IMG/VR virus record: IMGVR_UViG_3300005593_000011
Span: 1 to 23,433 of that record
DNA length: 23,433 nucleotides
Strand: one strand, 5' to 3'
Source of the DNA: a virus
How positions within the stretch are numbered: position 1 is the first letter of the stretch; every line of letters starts with the position of its first letter. The notes beneath the pieces were generated by a model. It worked only from the letters and a program-made list of their open reading frames with translations. It was not told the origin of the DNA and made no database searches. This document shows, in pieces, positions 4,855 through 22,010 of the stretch. Made by a program: the position numbers and the translations under genes.

Positions 4855-5082
4855 ATGAGACCAACTTACTTAAATCCAAAAAAACCAACAACGAAAGATC
4901 ATCTAAAATCATTATGGTTAAATGCGCGAAGTTTAATCTATGCAGGATTAACTTTGGGAGGGATCTTAGTTGTACTATTGGGATCTATTCTTTTATTACC
5001 ACTAGTACTTATATTAATAGTTGGTGCTATCCTATTTTTTACTTATAAGTTAGGAATATACGATGATAAGGAAAATCTCTAA
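4855..5082 (+). CDS. Small two-helix membrane protein (75 aa)
   Basis: After a basic N-terminal 26 residues come two hydrophobic helices, about 27-48 and 50-64, split by a proline (LLLPLVL), and then a short acidic tail (YDDKENL). This forms a tight membrane hairpin with both ends probably cytoplasmic. The gene follows its neighbour by 3 bases with no good ribosome-binding site, so it is likely translated by coupling. It is the last gene of the rightward operon, and its stop overlaps that of the giant polymerase gene on the other strand. The size and shape would suit a pinholin-type or other small phage membrane protein. No endolysin gene is seen next to it, so a lysis role is not supported by context. 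Confidence 0.6.
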   Translation: MRPTYLNPKKPTTKDHLKSLWLNARSLIYAGLTLGGILVVLLGSILLLPLVLILIVGAILFFTYKLGIYDDKENL

Positions 5083-8000
5083 TTAAATATCTGTCCCAGC
5101 GCTTGTTCTAATAGATCAGCTCCTGTTGGATTATTAGCCTCGTCAAATAACTCATCTAAATACATCGTAGTAGGCATTATATCCCCAACTATAAATCCAC
5201 TGTCTAAATTTCCTAACGTTGGTATACCAGTAGAATATTGAATTGCTCCAGATATAGCTACTCCAGTAGGATGTCTCATAGCCATTTGACGTGATGTTCT
5301 TTGATTACGTAAAAAGTACGATAGAAATACAGTAGCACCAAGAGATTCTAAAGTCTCTAAAGCAGGAGCTAATGCTTCATCAAATAATACAAATGCGTCT
5401 AGTGCTTCATGCATAGCTGTATTAAAATCTACCCCACGTATTTCCGTAGCATGCTGTATCATCACATACCTACCCAAGAAATCTGTCATTTGTACAATCT
5501 GACGCATAATCTGATAGGGCCCCGTACTTTTAGTCATAAAAATATTAGCTGCTATAGAATGCCCTGTATTAGATAATTTATCTGACGCGTTATACCACTT
5601 GTTTGTTTTCAAAAATCTCCGTCCACGATTGATATACCCATCCAATGAAGCATCATTCAGATCCTCCACAATAAGCGAATTCAATCCTGCAGCACTCATA
5701 GCATGAATTTTGTTATTCTCTATACGTACTGTTAATGCTGCTACCTGTATAGCTTCTGGACTATTTTTTTTATCTAAATTTTTAATATTAATAGTATTTG
5801 TAAGCTCTCTACGTTCTTCTGTATCTTTACGATATGCTTGGTATTCATGAAATCCTTCAATAGTCTTATGAATTATATAAGATAGAGGAATGTTCCTCAT
5901 CATTAGCTGCATTACGTTAGAATACGCGTTATATAACCATACCTGCGGCATAGCTATAACTATACGATCCTTTCCATAACCAATAATTTGTCTGAGAATA
6001 TAGTGGAATAGTCCTGCAAACCTTTTTATATGAACCATACTAGGGTGATTGAGCCCTGGTATATTTCTCAAGTCTCTTGCTTGATACCCAAATATTTTAT
6101 TAACAGCATCCTTCCTAACCATAAATTTACCGTCTTTGGTAAATCTATCCATATACATTCTAACTTCTTTAGGTAGCCTGTAATAACGATCAATAAATCC
6201 ATTTGCAGGATCTAAGAAATCAATGAACTCATCACGGTGAGATGGTAATCTTTCTCTTTGTTCATATACTAATAGCTCAATAGTTCTTTTATCATTCTTA
6301 ATAGTAGCTACGCGATCAATATAAGACGATTGCATATGTGCGAATACGTTTTGTATTTCTATATCTGGATTTAGTAGCTGTTTCCGAGTTACGTGGTTCA
6401 TGATTACTCGATAATCAGTAACATTTTCTTTCTCATCTAGAACAGGGCGTAATCGTAATTTGTCATTGAATTTTAATTTACGTCGAGAAGCCAGTTTTTC
6501 CTGTTCTTTATGAATATCACGAATAGCTTGTTTTATTTTTGGTACATCAGGTACGCCAGGAGATTTTTGGTAGTGAGGACTCTCTGATAAAATCTCTGTT
6601 AAAGTAGTACCGATATTACGTTTATTGGTCGTAGACATAATGGCAGAAACATAAGGAATAGGAGGCGCATGTCGTCCGATAAATAGTTTATCGTTTATTC
6701 TTTGACCAGCTTTAAGTCCTGGAATGTCTCCTAATCCATACATCTCTGGATAACCCTCGTTTTCCATATCTTTTTGTTGATACTCCTGCCCGAATTTCAT
6801 ATCCGTTAGGTTATCCATCCTCTCTACGACATAGCCTTTAATCATTTGTGTAGGATTACCGCCAAAATTCCCTTCTCTTGATCGGTCAACAAATTCAATA
6901 TGGCTATCTAATAAATCTATAAATCCATTCTGCGTAGCATCCACAGCAAATTCCGCATCAACAAGTTCCTTAACAGCAGCAGTTTCATCATATCTGGTCG
7001 CTCTTAAGGCTGTTAATGTAGCGTATGCTTCTATTAGTGCCAGATCACCGGCTTCTGGTTTAGCTAAATATTTTCTTGCGATAGTAAACGCATTCATATG
7101 AGCCACTTCTAAACCAGTATCTCCAATAGCCATGTATTCACCAAGCTCTTTAGCATAATCCACTGCGTGGTCAATATACTTTCCCTTAGCAGGTCTTTTA
7201 TTTAATATTTGTCTTTCAAGGTATCTTAATCTTGCATCAATTTTGTTTCTGTCACCTATAAAACTAGCTATCTCTGCGTGGGAAAGACCCATGTGCTTTA
7301 GACTGGACAAATCAGTTCTGAATATTACATTGGTTAGATTTTCTCTTAAATCTACAGACATTCCTTTAGGTTTGCTAGCATCTACTGATTTCCAGATCCC
7401 GTTAAACCATTTAATAGTAAACCTTTCAGCCTCCTGACGTGCTTTAGATACGTTTACTTTAGAGAACAATAATTGTTGGATTAGTTGTTTGCCAAGTATT
7501 CCTTCACCTACCTCTAATGCTAAATGGCGTAAAGTATCGCTCATGGCGTTATATACTATTTGCCGAGTCTTCAGAGTCTGGGCGTTTTTACTAATAGCAA
7601 GATAACCGGCACCTACAGCAACTCTACCTACGCGCTCAAGGAAATTAGCTGGTTCACTCTCTATTATCGCTAATGCCTGTTCATCACCAAATTTTCTTAT
7701 AAATTGATCAGAATCACCTAAATTTTTATAGAACTTATCTTGCAACCGCTCTAATCGATTTCTATTGTTACTCTGTATCCTTATTAATGTCTCGAAAACG
7801 GCCAACATTTCATGATTAGCTTTAGCACCAAAACCCCCTCTTCTATTAAACGCTCTTAATACAGTATCTACAGCAAGTTCTACAAAATACTCAAATACAT
7901 CTATTGCTCTAGTGAAGACAGTCTCTTCTTTTCTGTACTTGTAGTGTATTTTAGTTTTAGTGCCGGATAGATAATTTACAAGTTGCCTGTTTGTTACAGC

Positions 8001-11000
8001 GTAAGCTAAAAATTCACCTAACTTGTGTGTCTCGTTCTTTGGATTGTTAAATAAAAAGTCATATTGTTCTTTTGCCATTTCCTTTGCTGCTCTGTCTTCA
8101 CTCTTAGGATCATTTAAAAATATCCTGTATCCGTCGTTAGCAGCTAAATCTTGTTTAGTCTGTCGGTATAGTTTTTCTACTCTACGTCTTAACAAAGGAT
8201 TTTTAGCTAATGCAACAGTAATTATGGCGTGTACAAGTTCATGAACATATACTTCCTGAGGAGATTGTGCATTCGTAGATAAAGGGCCCTGTCTACTTAA
8301 AGATACTCTTATTCTCTTACTGACCGGATCAAATTCTCCTTGAGTAGTTCCGTCTATCTCTTCTTGAGTAAACCGAATAGCTGAGGAATCTTTCAACCCG
8401 TCAGCTACTTTAGTAAGTACTCTTATTAATATTCCTGCATGTTTAGTTTGATCCTGATCATTTTCATAGTAATTCTCAGAATGCTCTTGCATATCTGCAA
8501 AAGTAGATAATATATTTTCTTTTGTAATATCTCCTACTAACTTTGTTATAGGATTATCTCTTTTTTGGTCAGGTAATGAAGAATAAAGAAGTCCTTTACC
8601 TTTTTTAGCTTTTTTAATCTCTTTCCTAAATGCTTCACTAATAGCCTGCTCTTCTTTTTCAAATTCTGAAGGTGTATTTCGAACGTCTTTAGGAACATCT
8701 TTAAAAAGTAAATCTACTAGATTAGATATTTTTAATCGGAGATTTTTTTCTTTGTCTAAGATTAGTTGCGTAGCTTCAAAGATAGCTTTTCTAGCCATAT
8801 ATAATTGACTAGAAATAACTCTCCCGCCTCGTTCAGAGATTTCGTCCTCTACTTTTTTTCGTTCTCTTTGGACGGCTTTATTTACATCATTAATATCTTG
8901 AACAATAAATTCTCTAGATTTTTTATCGCTTGATCTTGCATATTTATTTATGAATGCTTTAGTTAGTAGCCAGTTATCTACATCCTTCATTAGATTATTA
9001 TTGCCGTTCTCTATGTCCTTGGCTTTTGTTTTAGCAATAACAGCGTTCATTCGTTTTGTAATAGAATCTAGTACACTATATTCTCTGTTAAGCTTTACGT
9101 ACCACTTGCCATATGTAGTATTGGCTGCTTCTAATGTATTAGGATCTCCCATTACAGCGTCATGGAGCATGAGCACATGTGGGTGAGCTGCTAAAGTTTT
9201 AGTTAATATAGCCGCATCCATATTAATGATCATACGAATTAGTGAACTAACGCCAGGGGAAGTAAAAGTCATACGCTTCGGCCTAGTTCTAGCTGTACTT
9301 GTTCCCCCTGCAGAATTCCTAAACTCAATAGCAACTCTCTCGCTTGTACTATCAGACTCGGAGGGTTCTCGTTTAGTCAGATCTATAAAAGACTGGCCTG
9401 TTTGCTGTAAAGGTCCCTTGTATTGCGGTAATAGACTAATTAGTTCTTTTTTAATAAGTTCGTTAATTTCTTTTTCAGTTAAATTTGGTCTCTTCTTTCC
9501 AGTATCTTTTCCATTTTTATCACGAATAATCCGTGCTTCTTCTTGAGCCTTTTCGAAATGAGCCATGAACACAGCATGTAATACCTCTCCTGCTTGTATT
9601 GCCGCATCTCTAGCGTCTTTTGTGCCTAATAGAATACTTTCCAGTCCTAGTTGTAATCTTGGGCGTAATAAAGTAGATATTCGAGTAATGGCTACTGCAT
9701 CGTTAAGTAGCTCTTCTTTTACTTTTTTCGGGTTTACAAATGCTCCTCTAAATATTGCGACGTTATCAATAGCCCCTACTACTCTTAAATGTCCCAGAAA
9801 CGGTAGGACCTCTTCTTTTAGATAAGTATTCTTAGCTTTTTGAGTTTTAAGTTTGTGGTAGTATCTTTGATGTAAATCTAGTTGTACATACAATTCAGAT
9901 AGTATATCTCCTGCAATGCCTTCAGAGATACTCTTAGGACCGCCACCATACATAAAAATAAGAAATGGGTATTTAATAAGGTTACGCATATCCCCATTTT
10001 TAAGCGTGGGATACAATTCATTTAATGAATTATTTCTATCTATGTACTGACGACGATTAAAAGGTTTTTTGCTCTTTTGATCAGTATGAAAGGCTTCAGC
10101 CGTATCAACTCCGGAATATTCCTCAACCTTAGTTCCTACATCCTGATAAATATCAGGTTGATATGGATCATAAATAGTAGACGATTCTGTAAGACCAATA
10201 TGTGTACCTGTTTGTTGGCGCCGTAATTCGTTCCCTTCTTTCCCATACATAGGAAACTGAAGAGCGTTTTGAGCAAATCCACTAGATATGCCATCAATTT
10301 CTAAAACTACATCTGATTCAAAGTCTGTTTTTAGTATTCCCAGTTTGGTTGCCTTGACTGATTCTCCGGCTTCTGTAACATTACTACCTACTGTTAGTCC
10401 TTGAGCTAATCCTGTTAATCCATTCAATATGGATGATCCGTGATCCGCTTCGCCTAGGACTTCTTTGTTTTTAATGATTAATAGAAGCTTTGCTAATTTA
10501 GCTGGTTGACCTTTTTCATCTATATTTTGTATTGCGCTTACAGCTTCTAAAACATCTCCATCAGCTATTAAATAATCAAAAGCATCCAAAGCAGATGTCA
10601 GGTCATTTTTATCTATTTTAAATCCAAGGTTACCAACAACAGATAACTTGAATTTCCATAGATCTTTTTCGGTATATTTAACAGAAGCTTTCGTGGGCCT
10701 TACATAGTATCTATCAACTCCACTGGCTTGTGGATTAATAGTTCCAGAAGACTGCATCATAATGCGGTTTTGAATTTGCAGCTTATATCTAAAATAAAAC
10801 TTCTTTAATAGATTACCGTCTTCGTGATTGTGTGCATCTAAAAGACCATCAATTGCGTTAGTTTTATCTGCATTGGAGGCCTCAATAGATTCTCGGCGTA
10901 CATTATGATAAGTATCATCGACATGCTCTACTCCAGCAAGCTTATAAAGTGTGTCTTTCTCGCCTGCTTCATCTAATTTAACTGCTATACCTAAAGACTG

Positions 11001-14000
11001 TGTCCCTGTCCATGAAACATGTTGGTTTTCATCATTTCCCTGGAGGACACTAAGTACATCTTTAATTTCATTAGCTACTCCACCTAAAGAATTCTTTATA
11101 TTGTCAACAACTTTAGGAAATGGTTTTTGAGCTGGCTTACCTCCTTCTGTATCTACATCCGCATCTATAACTGTTAATATTTCTTTACTAGCATCAACAG
11201 TTGCTTTAGGAAGTTTAAGAGGAATTTCTTTTCCATTACTAGTTTTTTTAAGATTAAGTTTAATATGTTTGTATTTGTGATCATCGGCGTTATTAAAAAG
11301 ACGCCCTTCTCTCTCGGCAGGCTTAAAGTTCCACGATTTACCTTCTATATGAAGTCTAGATTCGTCTCCTTCAAATTCTACGGTTGGTTGTGTATACGAG
11401 GTTTTGTCTGTAAGAGTAAGTTTTTGGGGTCCGTGTTCTACCTGCAAGGCTAACTGTCCTAAAGCTACACTTAAATTATTATAGTAAACATCCGTATCAA
11501 TATCTTTTCCTGATATTTTTAAAATACTGATAATATTATTACCAATAGTAGACACCGCCTCCGTGTAAGAGTGTCCAATATTCCTTACTTGGCCCCGTTC
11601 ACTAGGAGAGAGCTGAGCATGATCTCCATATAAAAATATTTCTCTATCAAGATCACCCTTAAATCTAATATTAGTTGGATTTTGTTGAAGCCAAGTAATG
11701 GTGCCTAACATCATTCCAAATATTATTTGAGGCGGGAATTCTGTTACATTTTGATCTTCACTATAAAGTATAGATAACGGCTTATTAATAGCGGTATTGC
11801 CTTGTGGATTACCTTCTTTATCTAAAATTCTACCGTCTACACGTATGGCTTCATATTTTCTAGCATATCTTGAATATTCTTCTACTAGTTCAGCAGCACC
11901 TTCTTCTGATACACCTAAAGTGATAAGAGCTCTTTCTAGAGTCTTATACTGTTTTTTACCTGATGCATCTGTGATTGGAAGACCGCTAAATGCATGAGTA
12001 TCCTCAAATACAGCATCCGGGAGAGTATGAATACCATTGAGAGCTTTTTTATCTCGTATCTTACGAATAGTAATTAACTTATTAGCGTATACGCCTAAAA
12101 TGCCAAAGACATTTTCTAGGTTTTCAGCTACTCGCTCAATTACGCTTTTCCCACCTATACTTGCATGTTGTTTTGTTTTAGCTTTCTTTAATTGTTCTTC
12201 AGTAATAGTAGTTTCAAGCTGTCTAGTCTCAATTTTTGCTTCTAGAAAATCTTTATTGTCTGGTAATGCTTTTAAAGCCTCCTCAATATCTTTTCTCTCC
12301 GGGGATTTTAATCCTAATGCAGTAGCTAATGATTCTAATATTTCAAAATGTTTAGCTAGTACACTATCTTCTGCTAAGGTCCCATCTTTTGTAATAATTT
12401 CCGGGTATAAAACATGGAATGCCTGTTTACTTTGGGATTCCTTAGGTAAATGTCGGCTAATTGGTTTTTGTTTAGTTTTCTTAGCTTCAGGCTTTTCTAT
12501 TAGTATATCTGCGCTTTCGACTATCTGATCAAATAGTGTTGGAGGATACTTTTCGGTATCTTCCATTCCCACTAATTCGCGAATAGCCATTACAAATTCT
12601 GACCATAAAGATTTATATTCAGTCTCAAGAGCAGGAAGCGACATCATCAGCGCTTTAGCGTGTGGGCTAGTTAAAGCATATGTTATTAATTCTTCTACTC
12701 CAGGGTTGTTTCGAGTTTTTTCATCTCCAGGAACATCTAGACCTCTCATAAGATCTAGCAAGCGCAGTTGATCCGGATTTAACTGCATTCCCTTAATCTC
12801 TTTAGCATCACTAATAGTCTTTAAATGTGTAGCTATATCAAGTAATTGTTGTTTAGCAGCTTTTTGTTTACGGGTTATTGGCGATACAAAAAGAGCTGCT
12901 ACAGCTACATGAAAAAGTTCGTGTAGTAATGTTGTTTCGTTTACTCCTTGTCTAGCTAATTCAATAGAAATATTGGTGGTGGATATGCCTTCCTCTGTCG
13001 CCTCATAGTTACGCTGTGCTACACCAGCTGCTGTACTGCCATCCGGTAAAGGTATGCGGTCTTTATCAATAAATATAATAGGGATAGGAGGAATACTATC
13101 TTTAATTCGTTGGGCAAGTCTCTTATACAATACACCATCAGTATTATTAATTAACCATTCAACAGCATCCTGTGCTGTTTTAAACCCCTTTACTATTTCT
13201 GGTGTAAGTTTACCGTATTGTGTTTTATCTTCTGTAGGTGCCTCTTTAGTTGGACTGTAATCTTCGCTAAGTGATTCAATAAAGCCATCAGGTATAATAT
13301 CTTTTGCTTTAATTCCTTTAAAGTTCGTTTTTTTGTCTTGTACTGCCTTTCTTTTTGCAAGTTCTTTCCGAACAACGTTCCATATCGTTCGAACAATATC
13401 CCGTTCTGGTAGTACTTCGTAGTTCCAAGTTTCATTACCTTCTGGGGCTTTCTGTTCTTGCATTTCAGTAATTGCTTGCATAAGGACTGCAGTTGATTCT
13501 TTTTCACTTTTTTTCTCCGCTAAAGCAGTAAGTTTTACAAGCACATTCTCATAAGCTTTTTCAAAGTCTTCAGAAACATGAAACCATTCAGCACTATCTT
13601 TTACTTGTCGAGTTAAGGATTTTAATATCTGTAAAACGTTGCTGATTGTTACGTTTTTAGCAGCATTTAATATTTCAGCATCTTTAGCGGGACCTTGTTG
13701 CTGTTTCCAAACACCTGTCTCACCTTGTCTCTCATATCCTTTCTTCGTTAAGTATTTAGCTAACTGCACTTCTCCTATATTGTAGTTAGACTCAGCTAAA
13801 TGACCTGCCGTATCCATAATAATAGTGGCGCCTGCTTCTATTGCTAGATCTACATTCTTATAGTCCTCTTGTAATTTTCCGTATTTATCAACAGGTACAA
13901 CTCTGTTATTCCGTCTACCATTAGATGCTATAAAAATAATATCTTCAGCAGTGTATTCTCCTGTATTAGCTAATCCTTTCTCTTCATATATTGTTTTATA

Positions 14001-17000
14001 ATGACGTGTGGCTGAATTACCCCACCCATGACCAATAAATTGTGTAGCTACTTTAGTTTTAACTTGTTCTTTCTTTATGTGTTTGATTGCTGCAGGTAGT
14101 TTCTCTGTAATTATTTCAGCAAGTCTTCTCGTCATGTAGTCTTGTATTGACTCTGACTTGGTAGTTTCTGTTACTTTAACTCCGCGCCGTTTAAGTTCGG
14201 CAGTCATACTATCAATGTTCTTTTGCCACGTTTTATAAAAATTAGGCTTTCTATTCTCTTTATTAGCTTTATCTATCTGTTTTTGTAATGTAGCGATAGT
14301 CTCTTTAAGTCTCTTTATCGGCCATACTTTTTCATTAGAAAGGATATTATCTGGTTTAGGCTTGCTCTCTTTCTTTTTCTTCTTCTTTTTCTCTGGTGTA
14401 CGTGCATTAAATGCTAAGACTGCATATGCAAGTACTGCTTCTTTCTGTGCTTTCTCACTAATATTTTTAATTTGTTTTATTTCTTCTCTTTTTTCAACTA
14501 TGTACTTCTGCAGTTCTTTATTAGATTTAGTTTTAAATAATGCATCAAGACTATCTTGAGTCTTCTTGTTAAGAAGAAGAGCCTTCTTTAATTTAAATCT
14601 AACTTTAGCAGCTTTTGCTTGTTTTTCTTTTAATGCTTTACGCCTCGCATCCAGCTCCGCTGCTGCGAGGCTAAAAGAGGTTTCTCTAAATCCCTCAACA
14701 ACAGTTAGAAATTCGTTACCATATTCTACTTCAAGCCCTACTTTTTTAATTAATCTTTCTGATGTGTAATCAAATCCTTTTTTCTTTTCTTTAAAAATAG
14801 CAGTGACATACTCATTCTTTTTACGTGCAGCTCTAAAATCTTTAACAGACATAGTCTCTTCTGTGTACTTCATTACTCGTTCTTCGCCAACTGTTCCTCT
14901 TACAACACGAATACCTCTCTTTAACGCAGGTTTATTATAAGCAGCAGTAAATGCTTCCTGTTTTCTTTTGAGATTATCTACATGGGTACTCATTCTTTGT
15001 ATTGTTTTAGTAACTGCTTCTTCTGCTATTACTTTGTCTTTAACTTCAGCTACTGTCTTTACTATTTCATTATAGTATGTACGTATTCCTTTCCATCTAG
15101 TCCCAGGACCATCTACTACCTGAGAGTGAACTTCCCCCATTGTTGTTTGCTTCTCTATCTTCTCAAGTTCAGCTTGTTTATCCCTTCTGTTAAGCTCAGC
15201 ATTAATAAGTTTTATATCTTTAGCTTTCTTATTCTTTTTAGCAATTTTGAGTAGTTTTCTTAACTTAGCAGGTGTTTCATTAACTACTTTCCTAATACTA
15301 GTTAAAGGACCCTCTTTAAATCTAGGATCTACCTGGGCAAGCTCATCTTTAATTTTACTTAATATTTGATCTTGGGAATCCGTTAATTCTTTATATTTAT
15401 GGATCTCAGCTATTTTATTAAGAGCTTCATCTAATTCTGCGGGATCAGTGGCGGGATCTGTAAGTTTCCCAACGTCTATGGATTTTACTAGCTTATTGAA
15501 TTCTGTTTCTTTTAGTTCAGTGTATGTTCTATCATCTACCGGTTCTTGAGGGTCCTTGTCCTCGATAAATGTTCGTTTTACTCTAGTAGCTAATGGATCT
15601 AATCCTTCAGTTAACCCTTGTTTTTCCTCTTCTAATTTTCTTATTGCTTCAGAATCAATGAATCCTTCTTTAGCTCTAACTGCTTCTATTTCTTCATTAA
15701 TCTCAGCTATACGTGCTTCTTTACCCTCTTTAGTTTTTAAGAGCTTATTTTTATCTTTAGTCTCTTGTCTTTCTTTTTGTTCAGCTAATATAGCGGCTTT
15801 TCGTTTCTCAAATACTTCTTTAGGTAAAACCTTTTCTAAAGTAGCAGTAAGTTCATCCCGTCTTTTAACATCTTCTGCTATGTATTCTTCAAGTGTAGCC
15901 TCTGCCCCAGAATCATCTTTTCCTGCTTTAGAAAGCTTCTGTCTAATTTGTTCTAATTTTATCTCTCGTTGTTCTGGATCTTTAATATTTTCAAGACCTT
16001 CGTTTAACTCGTCTATTTCTCTTTGAATTAGTGGACCTTGGCCAGTTTCTTTAACTTTAATTGGCTTTTCAGAAGCTATTGCTTTATCTAAATAAGCTAA
16101 TTCCTCCTTTACCCTCCGTTCCTCTCTAGAGGGCGTAAAAGGCAGTTTAGCGGTGTTATAAAGAGCTTTACCAGTAACCATACCTCCAATACCGCCGACA
16201 GTACCTACAGCCTCAGCTAGCGCATCAAACCCTATTTGAGCTGGATCTGTTATTTTACCTGATTCAGCTAGTTGATCGAAAGTTGCAGTAAAACCTCCTG
16301 ACAGTCCTTCACCACCAAGAGCTAATGCAGCATTGCCCAGTCCTTTACCTACTTTACGTGTAAAGCTAGTTTTACTAATAGCTTTTTTAACAGCGTCTGA
16401 AGATGTATCAGTTATTTGTTTTAATATACCGGTAGCTCTACCAAATCTAGCAAATGGTATAGCTCTGACAGCAGCCATATCACCAAACTTTTCAGCTACA
16501 GTAGAAGCACCTGCAAAGAACTCAATACGCATACGCTCTTCAGTAGTAGGATCTTTGCCATGCTCTTTTATAAAAGTAGTTGTAATTTCTCTAGCTTTAG
16601 ATACTGCTAAAGTATATAAAACAGCAGCTTGAGTCATAGGGCCCCCAGCTGTAAAAGCAATCATATATGGGATACTTTCAAAACCCTGTTGGACTAAATG
16701 TTGCCAATCTTGGGTTAATGTCTTCCATAAAGCCGCAGGAATTCCTTCTTCTTTAGCAACTCGTTTATATGCTAAAGATACAGCTGTATCATCTGCGTGT
16801 TTGGTGGGGATATGAGATTGTACATTCTTTGATATTTCTTCAATTTTATTGTATGTTTTTGAAGACCTATGGACTTTGGCTTCTAATTCAGCAATAGTAT
16901 TAAATTTTTCAGATGTATTTACATATTCTGTATCAGCAGAAGAAAGTGGAACATCTTCTCTCATCGCTTTCTTTACTTTTTGGTATTTGGCTAGCTCTTC

Positions 17001-17627
17001 TTTAGAGATAGTGGGAGTTGTGCTAGGCGTTCCAGAACCTTGACTCATTCCTTCCATAAAAGTTCTAGGAGCTGGATTAAGAATTTCCTGGTTATGCTTA
17101 TCAACTTCTTCGGTAAGAGTTTGGGCAGAAGTTCCTATCTGAGTAATGTCTGAACCTATTTCAGCTGCTCCACTAATTATCTTTCCTGTAACATCAACCC
17201 CAACAGCGCCTAATCCAGTCAAAGGGGTTGCTTTCATTCCAAGCCGTTCTTGCTTTTCTAGATCTTTAAGTCGTACTTCTTCAATACGTAATAGATCCGG
17301 GAGTTCTTCCTTACTTACATTACGTAAAATTTCCCCTGTAGCACTAATTAGATTGAATGTGCCGTCAGCAAGAAACTGGATATTATCCTCTGTTTTAACA
17401 ACCCTTTTTGGGTCAGGAAGACTTTCAAGAAAATCTTTACGTGCTTTAATTGCAATATCGGAGAATTTCTGTCTTTGAAGGTGCTGAGATAGGGGGCTAG
17501 GTACAGATTCGCGTAATAAAGAGGATTTTGCTTCAGCTATGGCTATAGCTGCATCTTGTTTAGCTCTAGCAAGGTTAGGACTAAAGCTAGCCTTGGCAGC
17601 TGCAATGTCATCGGCAATACTGCCCAT
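5079..17627 (-). CDS. Giant virion-encapsidated RNA polymerase, N4 vRNAP-like polyvalent protein
   Basis: This 4182-residue protein is larger than N4 vRNAP (about 3500). Polymerase motif A is LEIDGISSG (Asp2445), motif B is RNLIKYPFLIFMYG (Arg2548, Lys2552, Tyr2560) and motif C is MLHDAVMG (Asp2823). The K-to-Y spacing is 8, as in T7 and N4. The A-to-B and A-to-C distances (107 and 378) are close to N4 (111 and 392). In order the protein has a helical N-terminus; hydrophobic glycine-rich segments (about 315-490) that could meet the membrane; long coiled coils (about 500-1080); a seven-lysine tract (1080-1086); an unnamed module (about 1195-1310); a zincin motif HELFH (1569-1573); the polymerase; a second zincin motif HELVH (3129-3133); and a C-terminal part with more hydrophobic helices (about 3880-4150). 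In N4 it is injected with the DNA and transcribes early genes from hairpin promoters. The start has AGGT 8 bases upstream, 9 bases after the 823-residue gene. Confidence 0.9.
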   Translation of the reverse strand: MGSIADDIAAAKASFSPNLARAKQDAAIAIAEAKSSLLRESVPSPLSQHLQRQKFSDIAIKARKDFLESLPDPKRVVKTEDNIQFLADGTFNLISATGEILRNVSKEELPDLLRIEEVRLKDLEKQERLGMKATPLTGLGAVGVDVTGKIISGAAEIGSDITQIGTSAQTLTEEVDKHNQEILNPAPRTFMEGMSQGSGTPSTTPTISKEELAKYQKVKKAMREDVPLSSADTEYVNTSEKFNTIAELEAKVHRSSKTYNKIEEISKNVQSHIPTKHADDTAVSLAYKRVAKEEGIPAALWKTLTQDWQHLVQQGFESIPYMIAFTAGGPMTQAAVLYTLAVSKAREITTTFIKEHGKDPTTEERMRIEFFAGASTVAEKFGDMAAVRAIPFARFGRATGILKQITDTSSDAVKKAISKTSFTRKVGKGLGNAALALGGEGLSGGFTATFDQLAESGKITDPAQIGFDALAEAVGTVGGIGGMVTGKALYNTAKLPFTPSREERRVKEELAYLDKAIASEKPIKVKETGQGPLIQREIDELNEGLENIKDPEQREIKLEQIRQKLSKAGKDDSGAEATLEEYIAEDVKRRDELTATLEKVLPKEVFEKRKAAILAEQKERQETKDKNKLLKTKEGKEARIAEINEEIEAVRAKEGFIDSEAIRKLEEEKQGLTEGLDPLATRVKRTFIEDKDPQEPVDDRTYTELKETEFNKLVKSIDVGKLTDPATDPAELDEALNKIAEIHKYKELTDSQDQILSKIKDELAQVDPRFKEGPLTSIRKVVNETPAKLRKLLKIAKKNKKAKDIKLINAELNRRDKQAELEKIEKQTTMGEVHSQVVDGPGTRWKGIRTYYNEIVKTVAEVKDKVIAEEAVTKTIQRMSTHVDNLKRKQEAFTAAYNKPALKRGIRVVRGTVGEERVMKYTEETMSVKDFRAARKKNEYVTAIFKEKKKGFDYTSERLIKKVGLEVEYGNEFLTVVEGFRETSFSLAAAELDARRKALKEKQAKAAKVRFKLKKALLLNKKTQDSLDALFKTKSNKELQKYIVEKREEIKQIKNISEKAQKEAVLAYAVLAFNARTPEKKKKKKKESKPKPDNILSNEKVWPIKRLKETIATLQKQIDKANKENRKPNFYKTWQKNIDSMTAELKRRGVKVTETTKSESIQDYMTRRLAEIITEKLPAAIKHIKKEQVKTKVATQFIGHGWGNSATRHYKTIYEEKGLANTGEYTAEDIIFIASNGRRNNRVVPVDKYGKLQEDYKNVDLAIEAGATIIMDTAGHLAESNYNIGEVQLAKYLTKKGYERQGETGVWKQQQGPAKDAEILNAAKNVTISNVLQILKSLTRQVKDSAEWFHVSEDFEKAYENVLVKLTALAEKKSEKESTAVLMQAITEMQEQKAPEGNETWNYEVLPERDIVRTIWNVVRKELAKRKAVQDKKTNFKGIKAKDIIPDGFIESLSEDYSPTKEAPTEDKTQYGKLTPEIVKGFKTAQDAVEWLINNTDGVLYKRLAQRIKDSIPPIPIIFIDKDRIPLPDGSTAAGVAQRNYEATEEGISTTNISIELARQGVNETTLLHELFHVAVAALFVSPITRKQKAAKQQLLDIATHLKTISDAKEIKGMQLNPDQLRLLDLMRGLDVPGDEKTRNNPGVEELITYALTSPHAKALMMSLPALETEYKSLWSEFVMAIRELVGMEDTEKYPPTLFDQIVESADILIEKPEAKKTKQKPISRHLPKESQSKQAFHVLYPEIITKDGTLAEDSVLAKHFEILESLATALGLKSPERKDIEEALKALPDNKDFLEAKIETRQLETTITEEQLKKAKTKQHASIGGKSVIERVAENLENVFGILGVYANKLITIRKIRDKKALNGIHTLPDAVFEDTHAFSGLPITDASGKKQYKTLERALITLGVSEEGAAELVEEYSRYARKYEAIRVDGRILDKEGNPQGNTAINKPLSILYSEDQNVTEFPPQIIFGMMLGTITWLQQNPTNIRFKGDLDREIFLYGDHAQLSPSERGQVRNIGHSYTEAVSTIGNNIISILKISGKDIDTDVYYNNLSVALGQLALQVEHGPQKLTLTDKTSYTQPTVEFEGDESRLHIEGKSWNFKPAEREGRLFNNADDHKYKHIKLNLKKTSNGKEIPLKLPKATVDASKEILTVIDADVDTEGGKPAQKPFPKVVDNIKNSLGGVANEIKDVLSVLQGNDENQHVSWTGTQSLGIAVKLDEAGEKDTLYKLAGVEHVDDTYHNVRRESIEASNADKTNAIDGLLDAHNHEDGNLLKKFYFRYKLQIQNRIMMQSSGTINPQASGVDRYYVRPTKASVKYTEKDLWKFKLSVVGNLGFKIDKNDLTSALDAFDYLIADGDVLEAVSAIQNIDEKGQPAKLAKLLLIIKNKEVLGEADHGSSILNGLTGLAQGLTVGSNVTEAGESVKATKLGILKTDFESDVVLEIDGISSGFAQNALQFPMYGKEGNELRRQQTGTHIGLTESSTIYDPYQPDIYQDVGTKVEEYSGVDTAEAFHTDQKSKKPFNRRQYIDRNNSLNELYPTLKNGDMRNLIKYPFLIFMYGGGPKSISEGIAGDILSELYVQLDLHQRYYHKLKTQKAKNTYLKEEVLPFLGHLRVVGAIDNVAIFRGAFVNPKKVKEELLNDAVAITRISTLLRPRLQLGLESILLGTKDARDAAIQAGEVLHAVFMAHFEKAQEEARIIRDKNGKDTGKKRPNLTEKEINELIKKELISLLPQYKGPLQQTGQSFIDLTKREPSESDSTSERVAIEFRNSAGGTSTARTRPKRMTFTSPGVSSLIRMIINMDAAILTKTLAAHPHVLMLHDAVMGDPNTLEAANTTYGKWYVKLNREYSVLDSITKRMNAVIAKTKAKDIENGNNNLMKDVDNWLLTKAFINKYARSSDKKSREFIVQDINDVNKAVQRERKKVEDEISERGGRVISSQLYMARKAIFEATQLILDKEKNLRLKISNLVDLLFKDVPKDVRNTPSEFEKEEQAISEAFRKEIKKAKKGKGLLYSSLPDQKRDNPITKLVGDITKENILSTFADMQEHSENYYENDQDQTKHAGILIRVLTKVADGLKDSSAIRFTQEEIDGTTQGEFDPVSKRIRVSLSRQGPLSTNAQSPQEVYVHELVHAIITVALAKNPLLRRRVEKLYRQTKQDLAANDGYRIFLNDPKSEDRAAKEMAKEQYDFLFNNPKNETHKLGEFLAYAVTNRQLVNYLSGTKTKIHYKYRKEETVFTRAIDVFEYFVELAVDTVLRAFNRRGGFGAKANHEMLAVFETLIRIQSNNRNRLERLQDKFYKNLGDSDQFIRKFGDEQALAIIESEPANFLERVGRVAVGAGYLAISKNAQTLKTRQIVYNAMSDTLRHLALEVGEGILGKQLIQQLLFSKVNVSKARQEAERFTIKWFNGIWKSVDASKPKGMSVDLRENLTNVIFRTDLSSLKHMGLSHAEIASFIGDRNKIDARLRYLERQILNKRPAKGKYIDHAVDYAKELGEYMAIGDTGLEVAHMNAFTIARKYLAKPEAGDLALIEAYATLTALRATRYDETAAVKELVDAEFAVDATQNGFIDLLDSHIEFVDRSREGNFGGNPTQMIKGYVVERMDNLTDMKFGQEYQQKDMENEGYPEMYGLGDIPGLKAGQRINDKLFIGRHAPPIPYVSAIMSTTNKRNIGTTLTEILSESPHYQKSPGVPDVPKIKQAIRDIHKEQEKLASRRKLKFNDKLRLRPVLDEKENVTDYRVIMNHVTRKQLLNPDIEIQNVFAHMQSSYIDRVATIKNDKRTIELLVYEQRERLPSHRDEFIDFLDPANGFIDRYYRLPKEVRMYMDRFTKDGKFMVRKDAVNKIFGYQARDLRNIPGLNHPSMVHIKRFAGLFHYILRQIIGYGKDRIVIAMPQVWLYNAYSNVMQLMMRNIPLSYIIHKTIEGFHEYQAYRKDTEERRELTNTINIKNLDKKNSPEAIQVAALTVRIENNKIHAMSAAGLNSLIVEDLNDASLDGYINRGRRFLKTNKWYNASDKLSNTGHSIAANIFMTKSTGPYQIMRQIVQMTDFLGRYVMIQHATEIRGVDFNTAMHEALDAFVLFDEALAPALETLESLGATVFLSYFLRNQRTSRQMAMRHPTGVAISGAIQYSTGIPTLGNLDSGFIVGDIMPTTMYLDELFDEANNPTGADLLEQALGQIFN
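7983..8390 (-). other. Zincin-like metallopeptidase module 2 within the giant protein
   Basis: This covers residues of about 3080-3215. The helix VHELVHAIITVAL carries HExxH (His3129, Glu3130, His3133), and LGEFLAYAVT carries Glu3205, 76 residues after the first histidine. The layout repeats that of module 1 on the other side of the polymerase domain. All apparent zinc ligands are present, so it may be active. Confidence 0.6.
8688..11960 (-). other. Single-subunit RNA polymerase domain within the giant protein (approximate limits)
   Basis: This covers residues of about 1890-2980, set by placing motif A and motif C as in N4 mini-vRNAP (about 1106 residues with catalytic residues at 559 and 951). 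Catalytic Asp2445 is encoded at 10293-10295, Tyr2560 at 9948-9950 and Asp2823 at 9159-9161. The DxxGR region is changed to QIQNR with Arg2288 (10764-10766), followed by TINPQASG, which parallels the FNPQG of T7 polymerase. The motifs are seen directly; the domain edges are estimates. Confidence 0.8.
12648..13130 (-). other. Zincin-like metallopeptidase module 1 within the giant protein
   Basis: This covers residues of about 1500-1660. The helix LHELFHVAVAALF carries HExxH (His1569, Glu1570, His1573), and a downstream helix VEELITYALT carries Glu1646 as a likely third zinc ligand, 77 residues after the first histidine. Zincin-like modules of this sort occur in polyvalent phage proteins that are injected with the genome. 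The substrate is unknown; it could be self-processing, a host protein or a cell-envelope protein. Confidence 0.6.
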
Positions 17628-17636
17628 TTTATTTAC

Positions 17637-20108
17637 CTAGTTTTTCGTTTTACGTAGTTTCTTGTTTGCTTCCTCGGCTCTTGCTATTTCATCTTTAAGC
17701 ATCTTAATGTTATCTGCACTACTTCTTGGGGCCAGAGTAGCTATACCACCTAAATCTCTAACTACGGATTTATAATTAGAATCTGTATAACTATCGTCTT
17801 TCTTGCGGGAAACTCCATATTTTAATAGTTCAGCTGTCGCTTGTTTAATTATCTCTTTATTATCTTCGATTTTTCCCTTATCTATAATGCTTTGGTACTT
17901 GCCCATTTTCTTTGCAGATTGCTGCAGCATCATCCTAAAAAGCTGATTGTCAGCACTTGCTGGTGCATCAGTAATTTCTTGATCACTTGTCGCACCAAAT
18001 ATTTGACTTATTATAGGCCAGTTGTACCCCTCGTTTACAAAATCATCTTCATTCGAATCATATATAACTTCTGTTGTTGGACCTGAAGCATCTGTTCCAG
18101 CAACATTACTTCGTAAAAAGTTTAATATAAGATCAGCTTTTTCAAATTTAGTTGCTGTACCGCCCATTTTTTTATGTAAAATCTTTTCGAGACGAAGTAC
18201 TGCATTATTTATAGCTTCTGGTTTAGGTATTTCATAATTATTATCCTTTAACCATTTTACATATGAAGGTTTAACGCCTTGGGATATTCCTTCCAACTTT
18301 ACGAGAGCATGCATATCTGCAGTTGTCGCTGCTTGTTTAGCTTCAGCTTCTGCGAGTGCTGTTTCTTCTTTTACCATAGCTGCACTAGTTATATCTGCAA
18401 TCTCTACACCATATCCTATAAGTTTACTAGCTGCCGTAAATTTAGCAGCTATACCGCCACCAGCAATGTCCTGATTTCTAGCTTTAATCTGATCAAATTC
18501 CGCTTGTGTAATATTTCTAAGCCCATACCCTTCTTTTATTTGTTTCATCAAATCTCTGTCATAGCGTTTTAGATCATCGACAGTCATTTGACTAGCTGGT
18601 TTATCAATAATACGTTCTTTTTTTGCTTTTTTTGGATCATAGCCATCTTCGAATTCTGTACCTTCGTCTCCTGGAAACTTAGTCTCCGTATTACTTTCAA
18701 GCCCTAAATTTAAATCAATAGCGTCTAAAGCAGTCTTTCGATGTCGATCATTAAAAGCTTGGACATCATCGGGATTACGTGTTTGTAATTTTTTTAATTC
18801 TTTCTTATACGCATTAACTATGCTTTTATTCCTCAGACTCTCTAATATACGTACTTCTTTCTCACTACTGCCCGTCATTGCAGAACTAGGTATTGGAGCA
18901 ATAGCTGTTTCCATTGCTACATCCGCATCAATTAACGGATTATCAAATTTTTCTGCATAAGCTGAACTAGAAACAGACTTCTTCGCCATTTCTTTAAGTT
19001 TGGTAGTAGTACTGGCGGTCTTAGATTTATATTTTGATTGTAATCTACGGAAAACAGCATTCTCTAACCGAGTTCTTCCAGCAGTTGTGTAAGCTATTTT
19101 TTTAGTTTTTGGGAAAGCTTTATCTATATCGGCTTGTGTAACGTAGAGTCCTTTTTTATCTGCTAAAGTATCGCTATCAAGAAAGACATTATATTGATCG
19201 ATTAAAGGTTTTAGATCTGTTTCACTAATACCAGCATCCTTACCCTGTGTAATAGAAGTTTCAAGGTGTCTACGTACAGCTTCATCGCCGCTGATTGCGT
19301 TACCTTTCTTATCAAACCATTTCGTTGGATCATTTTTTATTGCTGCAATAGCATCTACGCTATCTCGAACTGCATTGAAGTGCTTGACTTTTCTTTTTTC
19401 CTTTACAGATTTTCTTTCAAGGTCCTCTAACGCTAACCTTCGATTTTTTTCTTTATCCCTATACTTCTGTTGCTCCCACTCCAATTTAGCTTCGTGCCTT
19501 AAATCTGCACGTTCAAATCCTTCTGTTTGTGTCTCACGATCTTTTATTTGACTTATAATTTTTGATTTTTCTTGTTCTTCTTTAAAAGCTTGTTCTATTC
19601 CAAATTGCTCTTCAGCTGTGCTCAGCTCTTGATATTTTTGTGCTATTTGTTCATTCAATCGCGCGGCTTCATTTGCCTCATTTATCATTAATTGTTTATG
19701 TCTTTTATCAGCTCGTAGATTATCTGCTATTATATCGTCGCGTTTACTTTTTTGAGTTAACAAAAGATCTGCAGCTTGAGCTGCTTGTTCGTCACGTCGA
19801 GTTCTTGCAAAATCATGGAGTTCCGCAGCACGTAGACCTTTTCTAACTTTACCTACATTAATAAGGTTAAATCCTTCCCTGGCTTGCTGTAATGCCGCAT
19901 TACGTGCTTCAGCAGTTGGGAGAGCATCTGCTCCAGCAAGAAACGCTTCTGTGTCCCTAGTTGATTTACGCTGTAGCATGTCATCAATAGACGTACCTAT
20001 CCCTTTAAGTGCATCACCTGCACCGCCAGAATATTTAGCGTAAGCCATTAGCTCATCAGCAATGCTGATGGGTGCTACGTTTCTCCAAGTAATAGGATCA
20101 GATGCCAT
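17637..20108 (-). CDS. Coiled-coil internal virion protein (823 aa)
   Basis: The start has a good AGGAG ribosome-binding site (TAGGAGATTACG before ATG). The N-terminal 60 residues (ITWRNVAPISIADELMAYAK, then a GGAGDALKGIGTSIDDML helix) resemble the beginnings of podovirus internal or ejection proteins. Residues of about 90-245 form a long, highly charged coiled coil rich in Lys, Arg, Glu and Gln, and the rest is mostly helical with no membrane segment and no catalytic motif. It lies directly before the giant polymerase gene (9-base gap), so the two are likely co-expressed and co-packaged. In N4-like phages proteins next to the virion polymerase are also virion parts. A role as an ejected or tunnel-forming protein is inferred from position and helical character. 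Confidence 0.6.
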   Translation of the reverse strand: MASDPITWRNVAPISIADELMAYAKYSGGAGDALKGIGTSIDDMLQRKSTRDTEAFLAGADALPTAEARNAALQQAREGFNLINVGKVRKGLRAAELHDFARTRRDEQAAQAADLLLTQKSKRDDIIADNLRADKRHKQLMINEANEAARLNEQIAQKYQELSTAEEQFGIEQAFKEEQEKSKIISQIKDRETQTEGFERADLRHEAKLEWEQQKYRDKEKNRRLALEDLERKSVKEKRKVKHFNAVRDSVDAIAAIKNDPTKWFDKKGNAISGDEAVRRHLETSITQGKDAGISETDLKPLIDQYNVFLDSDTLADKKGLYVTQADIDKAFPKTKKIAYTTAGRTRLENAVFRRLQSKYKSKTASTTTKLKEMAKKSVSSSAYAEKFDNPLIDADVAMETAIAPIPSSAMTGSSEKEVRILESLRNKSIVNAYKKELKKLQTRNPDDVQAFNDRHRKTALDAIDLNLGLESNTETKFPGDEGTEFEDGYDPKKAKKERIIDKPASQMTVDDLKRYDRDLMKQIKEGYGLRNITQAEFDQIKARNQDIAGGGIAAKFTAASKLIGYGVEIADITSAAMVKEETALAEAEAKQAATTADMHALVKLEGISQGVKPSYVKWLKDNNYEIPKPEAINNAVLRLEKILHKKMGGTATKFEKADLILNFLRSNVAGTDASGPTTEVIYDSNEDDFVNEGYNWPIISQIFGATSDQEITDAPASADNQLFRMMLQQSAKKMGKYQSIIDKGKIEDNKEIIKQATAELLKYGVSRKKDDSYTDSNYKSVVRDLGGIATLAPRSSADNIKMLKDEIARAEEANKKLRKTKN

Positions 20109-20125
20109 CGTAATCTCCTAAATTA

Positions 20126-21349
20126 TCAAACAGGGATATTCTTTAAGAAGTCTGTGTTTCGACCGCCTTGAGTTTTATAAATGTAGTCTTTTCTTGTATC
20201 AATTACGTTATTAAGTGAAGTAGCTTGAGCTAAATAGTTCCGGTCATCGGCTGCATATTTCTTATCCATTGCCTCTTTAGTTAGTTCTAAGCCTTTCATA
20301 TTAGAAAAATAGTCCAGTATACCCCCAGCACCTTGGAGTAATCCGGTACCAATACCTGCCCAACCTAACCAATCAGTTTTATCATTAATACCGCCACCTT
20401 CTCCTAAATTAAATCTCAGAGTATCTTCGGGAGTAAAGCCCATGCCCTGGTCTCTTAAGTATCTTGAGCCAGCATCGTCATCAAAATATGATTCTAGAGG
20501 AACTAGCCCAGTTGGATTCGAATCATTATTAACTTCCAGTCCTTGCATACTAGTACTAAAGGAAGGTACAGAATTTCCTCTTTCGGTAATGTAATCGTTT
20601 TTACCCTTCCAAAATTTATTCAAATCTTGTTGACCAAAATATGATTCACCGGGAGCGCCCTCTAAAGTTCTTCCTTTATACCCACTAAATACGTCATTTA
20701 GTTTAGGTAAATCCATACTGGTCCCCTCGTTACTTGGTGGAACCCTCAAATTATTTAAAGAATTATACTTATCTATTAAAGCATTTCCACCTTTAATAGC
20801 ATTCATAGCTCTAAGTTGAGTCAATACCTCTTCAGATGGTTCATCATCCCAAAATGTATTTCTAGGTGTACTAGATTTAGGAGTTCCGTAGTATAGGTTC
20901 CCATCTATATCACTAGCTCCGCTGGGAGAACTTGATCCACCATCATAATTCCACGGCCAGTATAGGTTCCCAGCGCGGACATCATCAAAGTAGTGGTCTA
21001 CTTGATCAAAGAAAGGCTCCTTGTCGGATACTGGTTTTCCATCATTCCAGAAAAAGGGATCATCAGATATTAATTTATCGTTTCCTCTTGATGGAACACT
21101 TAAATTATTTAAAGAATTATACTTATTTCTAGGAGTTCGTGTACTAGATCTGGTATTACCCTTCCTTGTTGGAGTCCGACTGGGGTAGTAGGGGTCCACT
21201 AGCTTACCAGTTGTCATGCTAAAATAATTATTATCGTCATCAACCCTATATTCTACGCCGTCTATCTCTTCGGTTTGATACATTGAACCACTTTCTCTTG
21301 CTATCCGCTGGTTCTTTCGTATTAAGTCTAATCTTTCTTGTTCTGTCAT
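20126..21349 (-). CDS. Putative virion protein with duplicated segment and C-terminal membrane-type helix (407 aa)
   Basis: The first 300 residues are low-complexity and disordered, rich in Asn, Ser, Gly, Pro, Asp and aromatics. They hold two copies of KYNSLNNLxVP, about 118 residues apart. The C-terminal 90 residues are different: a glycine-rich hydrophobic helix (WLGWAGIGTGLLQGAGGIL) followed by a charged helix (KGLELTKEAMDKKYAADDRN). A hydrophobic helix followed by a charged helix near the C-terminus is a pattern seen in several podovirus internal or ejected virion proteins. The ribosome-binding site AAGG lies about 8 bases before the start, and the gene lies between two other late genes with small gaps. 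No enzyme motif is seen. A structural role is inferred from context. Confidence 0.5.
   Translation of the reverse strand: MTEQERLDLIRKNQRIARESGSMYQTEEIDGVEYRVDDDNNYFSMTTGKLVDPYYPSRTPTRKGNTRSSTRTPRNKYNSLNNLSVPSRGNDKLISDDPFFWNDGKPVSDKEPFFDQVDHYFDDVRAGNLYWPWNYDGGSSSPSGASDIDGNLYYGTPKSSTPRNTFWDDEPSEEVLTQLRAMNAIKGGNALIDKYNSLNNLRVPPSNEGTSMDLPKLNDVFSGYKGRTLEGAPGESYFGQQDLNKFWKGKNDYITERGNSVPSFSTSMQGLEVNNDSNPTGLVPLESYFDDDAGSRYLRDQGMGFTPEDTLRFNLGEGGGINDKTDWLGWAGIGTGLLQGAGGILDYFSNMKGLELTKEAMDKKYAADDRNYLAQATSLNNVIDTRKDYIYKTQGGRNTDFLKNIPV
20748..20772 (-). repeat. Direct repeat copy 1 (encodes KYNSLNNL)
   Basis: This 25-base stretch is identical to 21102-21126. With a few mismatches the likeness extends outwards on the low-coordinate side (TGGTGGAACCCTC against TGATGGAACACTT). 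Both copies lie in the same frame of the 407-residue gene and encode KYNSLNNLxVP. Near-identity at DNA level suggests a recent duplication or gene conversion. Confidence 0.8.
21102..21126 (-). repeat. Direct repeat copy 2 (encodes KYNSLNNL)
   Basis: This is the second copy of the 25-base identical repeat, 354 bases from the first (118 codons, so in frame). Recombination between the two would delete 118 residues without a frameshift. Confidence 0.8.
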
Positions 21350-21359
21350 TTTTAGTACC

Positions 21360-22010
21360 TTATTTCCAGTCTTTCATTTCATTATTCCAGCCGCGGCTAT
21401 TAAAATTGTCTATTCCGCTACCTGGTCTATATGATTTAAGATAATTGCTCTTTGTTCGGTTGTATCGACTTATTGGATCATACATACTCGGTATATTTTG
21501 TTCTTCTATACCGCCAGATTCTCTTGCATAATTTAATTCTGGAAGTTCTCTAAGAATATCGCTAGGTACAGGTATAGCCTCTCCAACGGGGGTATTAAAT
21601 AGTCCTTCCATACCTAACCAAGGAGTTTGCCGAGGTTTCCATTGGGCTGGTTCCCAGAATCCTTTTCCTCCAAAGAAATCATCATTTCCAAACTCTTTTT
21701 CTATTTGTTCAAACTTTGAGAGAGGTGCGTTTGGATCTCTTACAAATCGGTTTCCTTTACGATCATAAGGAAACTTATCATAGTCCATCTCATAATTAAG
21801 TCTATCTTCTCTTTGTCCTCTACTTAAGCTTTTATCCCTAGGATAATTATAATCCCACCCGCCTCTTTCATTTTGTATAAGCTGATCTTTACCAAAATAT
21901 CGAAACAAATCGTCTATGGATACTGGGTTTCCTCCATCCCACCATCCACCATCTCTTTGTTCGTATGAATGTCCTCTACGTCCGTGTCTTCTTATTCGCC
22001 CATTAGCCAT
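21360..22010 (-). CDS. Aromatic/glycine-rich hypothetical late protein (216 aa)
   Basis: The start at 22010 has a good AGGAG ribosome-binding site (ATAGGAGTAATGTT before ATG). The N-terminus is basic (MANGRIRRHGRRGHSYEQR). The rest is rich in Gly, Trp, Tyr, Phe, Asp, Asn and Arg, with little predicted regular structure, no membrane helix and no known motif. The segment WWDGGNPVSIDDLF resembles FFWNDGKPVSDKEPFF in the neighbouring 407-residue protein, so the two may share a binding motif or common origin. It lies in the late operon 10 bases before its neighbour. A virion or assembly role is likely from position only. Confidence 0.55.
   Translation of the reverse strand: MANGRIRRHGRRGHSYEQRDGGWWDGGNPVSIDDLFRYFGKDQLIQNERGGWDYNYPRDKSLSRGQREDRLNYEMDYDKFPYDRKGNRFVRDPNAPLSKFEQIEKEFGNDDFFGGKGFWEPAQWKPRQTPWLGMEGLFNTPVGEAIPVPSDILRELPELNYARESGGIEEQNIPSMYDPISRYNRTKSNYLKSYRPGSGIDNFNSRGWNNEMKDWK

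Follow-up and report, generated by a model that had tools for sequence, protein, structure and literature searches.

Why should a virion RNA polymerase (vRNAP) carry a peptidase-like motif on either side of its polymerase? The question is raised by the 23,433-nucleotide stretch analyzed here (the window), positions 1 to 23,433 of the 23.4-kb virus record IMGVR_UViG_3300005593_000011, in which a giant gene (5079..17627, minus strand, as for all coordinates of this protein given below) encodes a 4,182-residue N4-like vRNAP. One HExxH motif followed by a distant glutamate stands before the polymerase core, and another behind it. Our analysis assigns the two modules to two old families, here termed type I and type II, that are paired across N4-like polymerases. 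We propose, with a probability of roughly 45%, that both are live metallopeptidases, paralogues of an old pair, which would become active after ejection and cut the protein at its domain boundaries.

The upstream (N-side) module spans residues 1483-1712 (12492..13181) and carries HELFH at residues 1569-1573 (12909..12923), with Glu1646 (12690..12692) as the predicted third metal ligand. The downstream (C-side) module spans residues 3045-3263 (7839..8495), with HELVH at residues 3129-3133 (8229..8243) and Glu3205 (8013..8015) in the corresponding role. Between them lies the single-subunit (T7/N4-type) RNA polymerase core (~residues 1898-3050; 8478..11936), so the modules do bracket the polymerase, and the motif and ligand positions are exactly those that a first-pass annotation of this DNA had given. 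HELFH and HELVH are the only HExxH motifs in the protein. Its composition alone predicts 0.12 such motifs by chance, and two were reached in 15 of 2,000 shuffles; by themselves, the motifs would be weak evidence. The third-ligand glutamate, which was not a criterion when family sequences were selected, is invariant at the positions of both Glu1646 and Glu3205 in 64 of 64 aligned family members, and all four ligands are kept in each of these modules. The distances of 77 and 76 residues from HExxH to Glu were also reported correctly by the first-pass annotation; as a sign of kinship they fail, for the spacing ranges from 54 to 101 across the family, and their near-equality is a coincidence that carries no evidence.

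Kinship emerges instead from profiles and models. Comparison of the N-side and C-side family profiles with hhalign gave a probability of 98.2% (E-value (E) 3.4e-14), with HExxH aligned on HExxH and Glu on Glu. One of the ten N-side rows (L038) is a C-side type I module of a vRNAP; a pure N-side profile of four rows still gave 97.3% (E 1.8e-11), and a control against a polymerase profile gave 0.3%. Compared directly, the two window modules are 31% identical over 59 residues (E 0.007, for a single comparison), and module profiles built from only two sequences lacked the depth for alignment (probability 5%). AlphaFold models of the C-side module (predicted local distance difference test, pLDDT, 84; predicted template modelling score, pTM, 0.85) and of the N-side module (pLDDT 72; pTM 0.72) share one order of elements: helices, three strands, the HExxH helix, further helices and then a helix with the conserved Glu. 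The core order of helix, three strands, HExxH helix and Glu helix fits the description of zincins by Iyer et al. 2017 (PMC5512222). When the N-side model was searched against a viral structure library with Foldseek, it matched a phiKMV-like internal virion protein (E 1.2e-6; template modelling score 0.58) and the vRNAP of Vibrio phage phi 1 (E 8e-6). These profile and model data indicate that the two regions are homologous domains of predicted zincin type, as had been supposed at first pass. HExxH might alternatively bind iron, the domains being oxygenases of the alphaKG-HExxH type and not peptidases; for the C1 domain of N4 gp50, a cryo-EM study (PMC12633501) names not only zincins but also a related class, the radical SAM enzymes, with a citation of fused alphaKG-HExxH proteins. 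We consider this very unlikely, since a glutamate as third ligand on a later helix and the order of elements both fit the zincin description (PMC5512222).

Are the two modules then copies of one another? The first-pass annotation had read them as a locally duplicated peptidase domain, a reading that has the shared motif and the similar spacing in its favor. We define type I as the zincins of phiKMV-like internal virion proteins together with the live zincin of N4 and DEV (the N4 C1 group). A type I profile was trained on the N-side and internal-virion sequences and a type II profile on the C-side set, with N4-type sequences in neither; they match the N-side module at E 1e-67 and the C-side module at E 2e-76, respectively, the window's own row belonging to the training set in both cases. 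A 50-row tree unites the N-side module of the window with those of three relatives (support 95/87). The best 64-row tree does not place its six N-side rows in one group, but a single group is not rejected by the approximately unbiased (AU) test (p 0.43); a 71-row tree again shows the N-side rows as one group (99/98). Type I is recovered at 100/99 with the catalytic columns masked. The nearest relatives of the N-side modules are the zincins of internal virion proteins and of N4/DEV-type polymerases, not their own C-side modules, and a joint clade of N-side and own C-side modules is rejected by the AU test (p 0.0014 with 50 rows; p 0.00017 with 64 rows). Within the window's clade, the N-side tree broadly parallels the C-side tree, and the identity of the two window modules is low, as noted above. 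A recent local duplication of the C-side module is therefore ruled out as a candidate, and we give it next to no credence as an explanation of the upstream copy. On these grounds the N-side module is assigned to type I and the C-side module to type II, two old families for which an ancient duplication is a possible source; the upstream copy is nearest to zincins of other putatively ejected virion proteins. The arrangement is not a local duplication, because the two copies belong to families that are paired across N4-like polymerases.

That pairing, as predicted from the profiles, is widespread, so that the modules recur in other N4-like vRNAPs in several arrangements. In PG11 and L031, type I and then type II follow the polymerase in tandem with every ligand intact in both, the type I match of L031 being weak (E 8e-6). 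A live type I followed by a ligand-less type II occurs in N4, DEV, 98PfluR60PP, K479, L038, L041, EcP1, and Horatius. Type II stands alone in MS02, JA-1, pVco-5, phi50-12, and most metagenome contigs, and type I alone in EE36phi1 and R7L. The window and its near relative share with L052, L054/L055, L012/L013, and L019 an arrangement in which an intact type I precedes the polymerase and an intact type II follows it; among the vRNAPs sampled, upstream placement of type I is confined to this clade of five lineages. The upstream copy is absent from L014-L018, L058, L064, L068, L072, L073, and L076, despite at least 1,000 residues before the polymerase.

One set of contigs was found through the HExxH pattern and is biased accordingly. 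Another was found through the polymerase, by a search that used a narrower polymerase alignment and did not select for HExxH; all of its contigs that reach the region carry a live type II, and five isolates that also came to light through the polymerase each have at least one live copy. Loss of HExxH among the vRNAPs sampled, which would speak against a peptidase, is limited to Alteromonas phage AD45-P1 and the type II copy of the N4 type; every other sampled vRNAP in which the region is complete keeps at least one copy with all ligands, and AD45-P1 is the only one without. Several further motifs were seen in the same survey. A 1,173-residue polymerase-free open reading frame (ORF) at L046:7028-10546 carries two type I zincins in a row (HELIH and HESVH). 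The roseophages EE36phi1 and R7L have HETGH/HETAH upstream of the polymerase (L083 residue 1332, L084 residue 1182), perhaps a zincin of another kind. HENMH at residue 1538 of K479 was discarded as a chance match, as it lies inside the polymerase.

The ligand-less copies were identified in eight sequences (L003, which is N4 gp50, and L009, L006, L086, L087, L007, L038, and L041), in each of which they directly follow a live zincin. HExxH and the glutamate are both lost, reading FQMVT/T in N4 and LEQVE/R in DEV. Together the eight match type II at a probability of 99.8% (E 4e-30) and type I at just 57%; masking of the four catalytic columns leaves them as a single clade (97/83) nested in type II (100/99). 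Searched against all PDB sequences, a type II profile in which one of 25 rows (L041) is an N4-like type I sequence had N4 gp50 as its best match (7e-18), and the best-scoring stretch of gp50 was 2440-2613, above the known HExxH stretch. It is thus well supported by these comparisons that N4 gp50 ~2440-2613 is a previously unrecognized dead type II zincin. In the cryo-EM description of gp50, C1 comprises residues 2124-2375, and C2, residues 2376-3500, is without a known structural relative (PMC12633501); the dead copy falls at the start of C2.

Retention of the ligand-less type II in N4, DEV, EcP1, Horatius, K479, and others would suit a mainly structural role for the modules, as aids to packaging, unfolding, refolding or docking of the polymerase and the C-terminal domain, with catalysis dispensable. 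Consistent with this, AD45-P1 keeps a recognizable domain with EEVVH, the N4 C-terminal domain is reported to be necessary for encapsidation (PMC5512222), and N4 C1 touches the polymerase (PMC12633501). Pure scaffolding, however, would need no all-ligand copy, and all the complete vRNAPs sampled other than AD45-P1 keep at least one. We regard this serious rival as unlikely.

What surrounds the upstream copy bears on its possible task. Before the N-side zincin lies a fast-evolving segment that we term cargo (~residues 1101-1480; 13188..14327), delimited by comparison with the closest relative. In that comparison, residues ~1101-1700 are the fast-evolving part of the protein, with a nonsynonymous divergence (pN) of 0.09-0.18 versus 0.00-0.08 nearly everywhere else; pN also exceeds 0.1 in two single comparison windows outside this region. 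The ratio of nonsynonymous to synonymous rates (omega) is 0.74 in the cargo, 0.44 in the N-side zincin, 0.27 in the polymerase, and 0.26 in the C-side zincin, values that place both modules under purifying selection. In the closest relative (L051; L001/L002 contig), residues ~1150-2090 of the ORF hold an HEKSH...E region, a DUF7831 domain, and an AlkB-like 2OG-Fe(II) oxygenase; the HEKSH...E region is zincin-like, of another kind than types I and II. An AlkB domain in L052 and a superfamily 1 (SF1) helicase in L019 occupy the same place before the N-side module. In L018, L064, L072, and L073, which are without an upstream zincin, a helicase lies between the polymerase and the C-side zincin, and L064 also has DUF7831. 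In this small sample, cargo thus tends to be placed directly before a zincin.

Other domains were observed in and around these segments. The cargo segment of the window includes a compact unnamed domain (FIGHGWGNSATRHYKTIYEE...; 13680-14010, residues ~1207-1315) without a Pfam match. RecD/Pif1-like SF1 helicases are fused within the vRNAP, before or after the polymerase core, in L018, L019, L072, and L073. The vRNAP ORF at L064:4043-21931 is 5,963 residues long and has an HERAH motif just past the polymerase. An SLT transglycosylase or LysM domain near the vRNAP N terminus in L015, L016, and L021 may have a function in peptidoglycan.

How might such a pair work? For both modules we infer zinc binding, activity, self-cutting, and timing. 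They would be inactive in the particle, and both would become active once the protein has been ejected and refolded in the host. Type I would cut at the boundary between cargo and polymerase, and type II at or near the boundary between the polymerase and the C-terminal domain; the latter cut would relieve an inhibition of the polymerase by the C-terminal domain that is known from N4. Two tasks were put forward for domains of this kind by Iyer et al. 2017: processing of injected multidomain proteins, whether before or after ejection, or attack on proteins of the host (PMC5512222). Action after ejection is favored here over release in the virion because N4 vRNAP is packaged unprocessed (PMC5512222), purified recombinant gp50 was obtained without degradation (PMC12633501), and the N4 C-terminal domain reduces transcription in vitro (PMC12633501).

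Several observations weigh against two live, self-cutting peptidases. The first two of the N4 findings just cited are among them: unprocessed packaging argues against release of the polymerase before ejection, and cutting after ejection would still be possible. Peptidase activity of family members is a prediction throughout. A Foldseek search of both models against the PDB gave no match at E <= 0.001, with zincins among the weak top matches. In AD45-P1 (L080) type II reads EEVVH and HExxH is lost; the C-terminal part has an ORF of its own there, apart from that of the polymerase, and the record labels this split a potential frameshift. Three split-gene lineages keep a live type II where the polymerase is already separate: the polymerase and the zincin/C-terminal part are naturally divided at L033:9113, L040:9347, and L042:9320, with their own start codons and an intact HELVH. 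Freeing the polymerase therefore cannot be the only job of this zincin. The association of cargo with the N-side zincin, finally, is based on few lineages.

The live type II of the split-gene lineages would also suit metallopeptidases that cut host proteins (envelope, defense or regulatory), the polymerase being only their delivery vehicle. Type I occurs in non-polymerase internal virion proteins of phiKMV-like phages as well and here sits in a fast-evolving segment, and host proteins are among the options listed by Iyer et al. (PMC5512222). The target is purely hypothetical, and type II evolves slowly and is almost always present, which is not typical of an arms-race effector. Attack on the host is a serious rival, possible if somewhat doubtful in our judgment. 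Returning to cleavage of the vRNAP itself after ejection, we tentatively suggest a broader history, in which N4-family vRNAPs would have been built on an ancestral zincin pair. In the N4/DEV branch, one member may have become a pseudopeptidase beside a live partner; in the window's branch, the other may have been put upstream to serve swappable cargo. The pair would then be a control element: once ejection has taken place, it would convert an inert, thread-like virion protein into parts that work separately.

The identity of the protein itself is supported by its sequence and its neighbors. Its PHROG match is phrog_2206, 'virion RNA polymerase' (E 2e-175), and the polymerase motifs R, DG, R..K...YG, and HD are intact and align with those of N4, DEV, and JA-1. 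The neighboring genes, which encode primase, Sak4, single-stranded DNA-binding protein, and Holliday junction resolvase on the other strand, are arranged as in N4, and with the vRNAP and virion genes they make up the stereotyped N4-like neighborhood. Behind the C-side zincin, the rest of the C-terminal domain (residues 3300-4182; 5082..7730), the counterpart of N4 C2, is under the strongest purifying selection of the protein (omega 0.20). Searching Pfam with the whole protein, ten overlapping pieces, and both modules yielded no family above its curated cut-off, and a search of GenBank phage DNA with the window found nothing close. By analogy with N4, we take the product to be an N4-type virion RNA polymerase, putatively ejected, with two domains of predicted zincin fold. 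At the place of N4 gp51-gp53, the window has three virion-side ORFs (823, 407, and 216 residues; 17637-22010) with no PHROG match or only a weak one.

Part of this is already in print: a zincin in an N4-like vRNAP, and more than one metallopeptidase (MPTase) domain in one polyvalent protein (PMC5512222). To the extent of the literature searched, in which a search on crAss-phage zincins gave nothing useful, three points are new: the pairing of two types, the loss of all ligands from the type II copy of N4 and its relatives, and the upstream type I beside variable cargo. The cryo-EM study describes the part that the N4 C-terminal domain plays in early transcription as unknown (PMC12633501). Recognition of a further, dead zincin where C2 begins, together with lineages that have two live, one live, split or dead copies, provides a natural set of variants for asking if the peptidase is needed, what is cut, and when; the upstream copy beside variable cargo suggests that the injected megaprotein is built for delivery and release.

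Among known systems, N4 gp50 with its C1 domain (2124-2375) is likewise a giant, ejected RNA polymerase of the single-subunit kind that bears a live HExxH zincin, and the gene order around it matches. It differs in that its live type I follows the polymerase and its type II is dead, whereas in the window two intact modules enclose the polymerase, type I ahead of it and type II behind; a type II directly after the polymerase is shared with most N4-like phages sampled. The zincin-like MPTase domains of phage polyvalent proteins belong to the same superfamily, and in the parts of PMC5512222 that we cite the two types, the dead N4 copy, and placement on both sides of the polymerase are not described. 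The phiKMV-like internal virion protein (PDB 9sfn chain G, 1,337 residues; PAXYB1 and relatives) has a type I zincin (profile E 7e-17) amid other surrounding domains and without a polymerase; the Foldseek match of the N-side model at about E 1e-6 was to a homologue of this protein. The vRNAP of Vibrio phage PG11 also joins both types, with intact ligands, in one polypeptide; there they stand in tandem after the polymerase, whereas in the window they stand on both sides of it.

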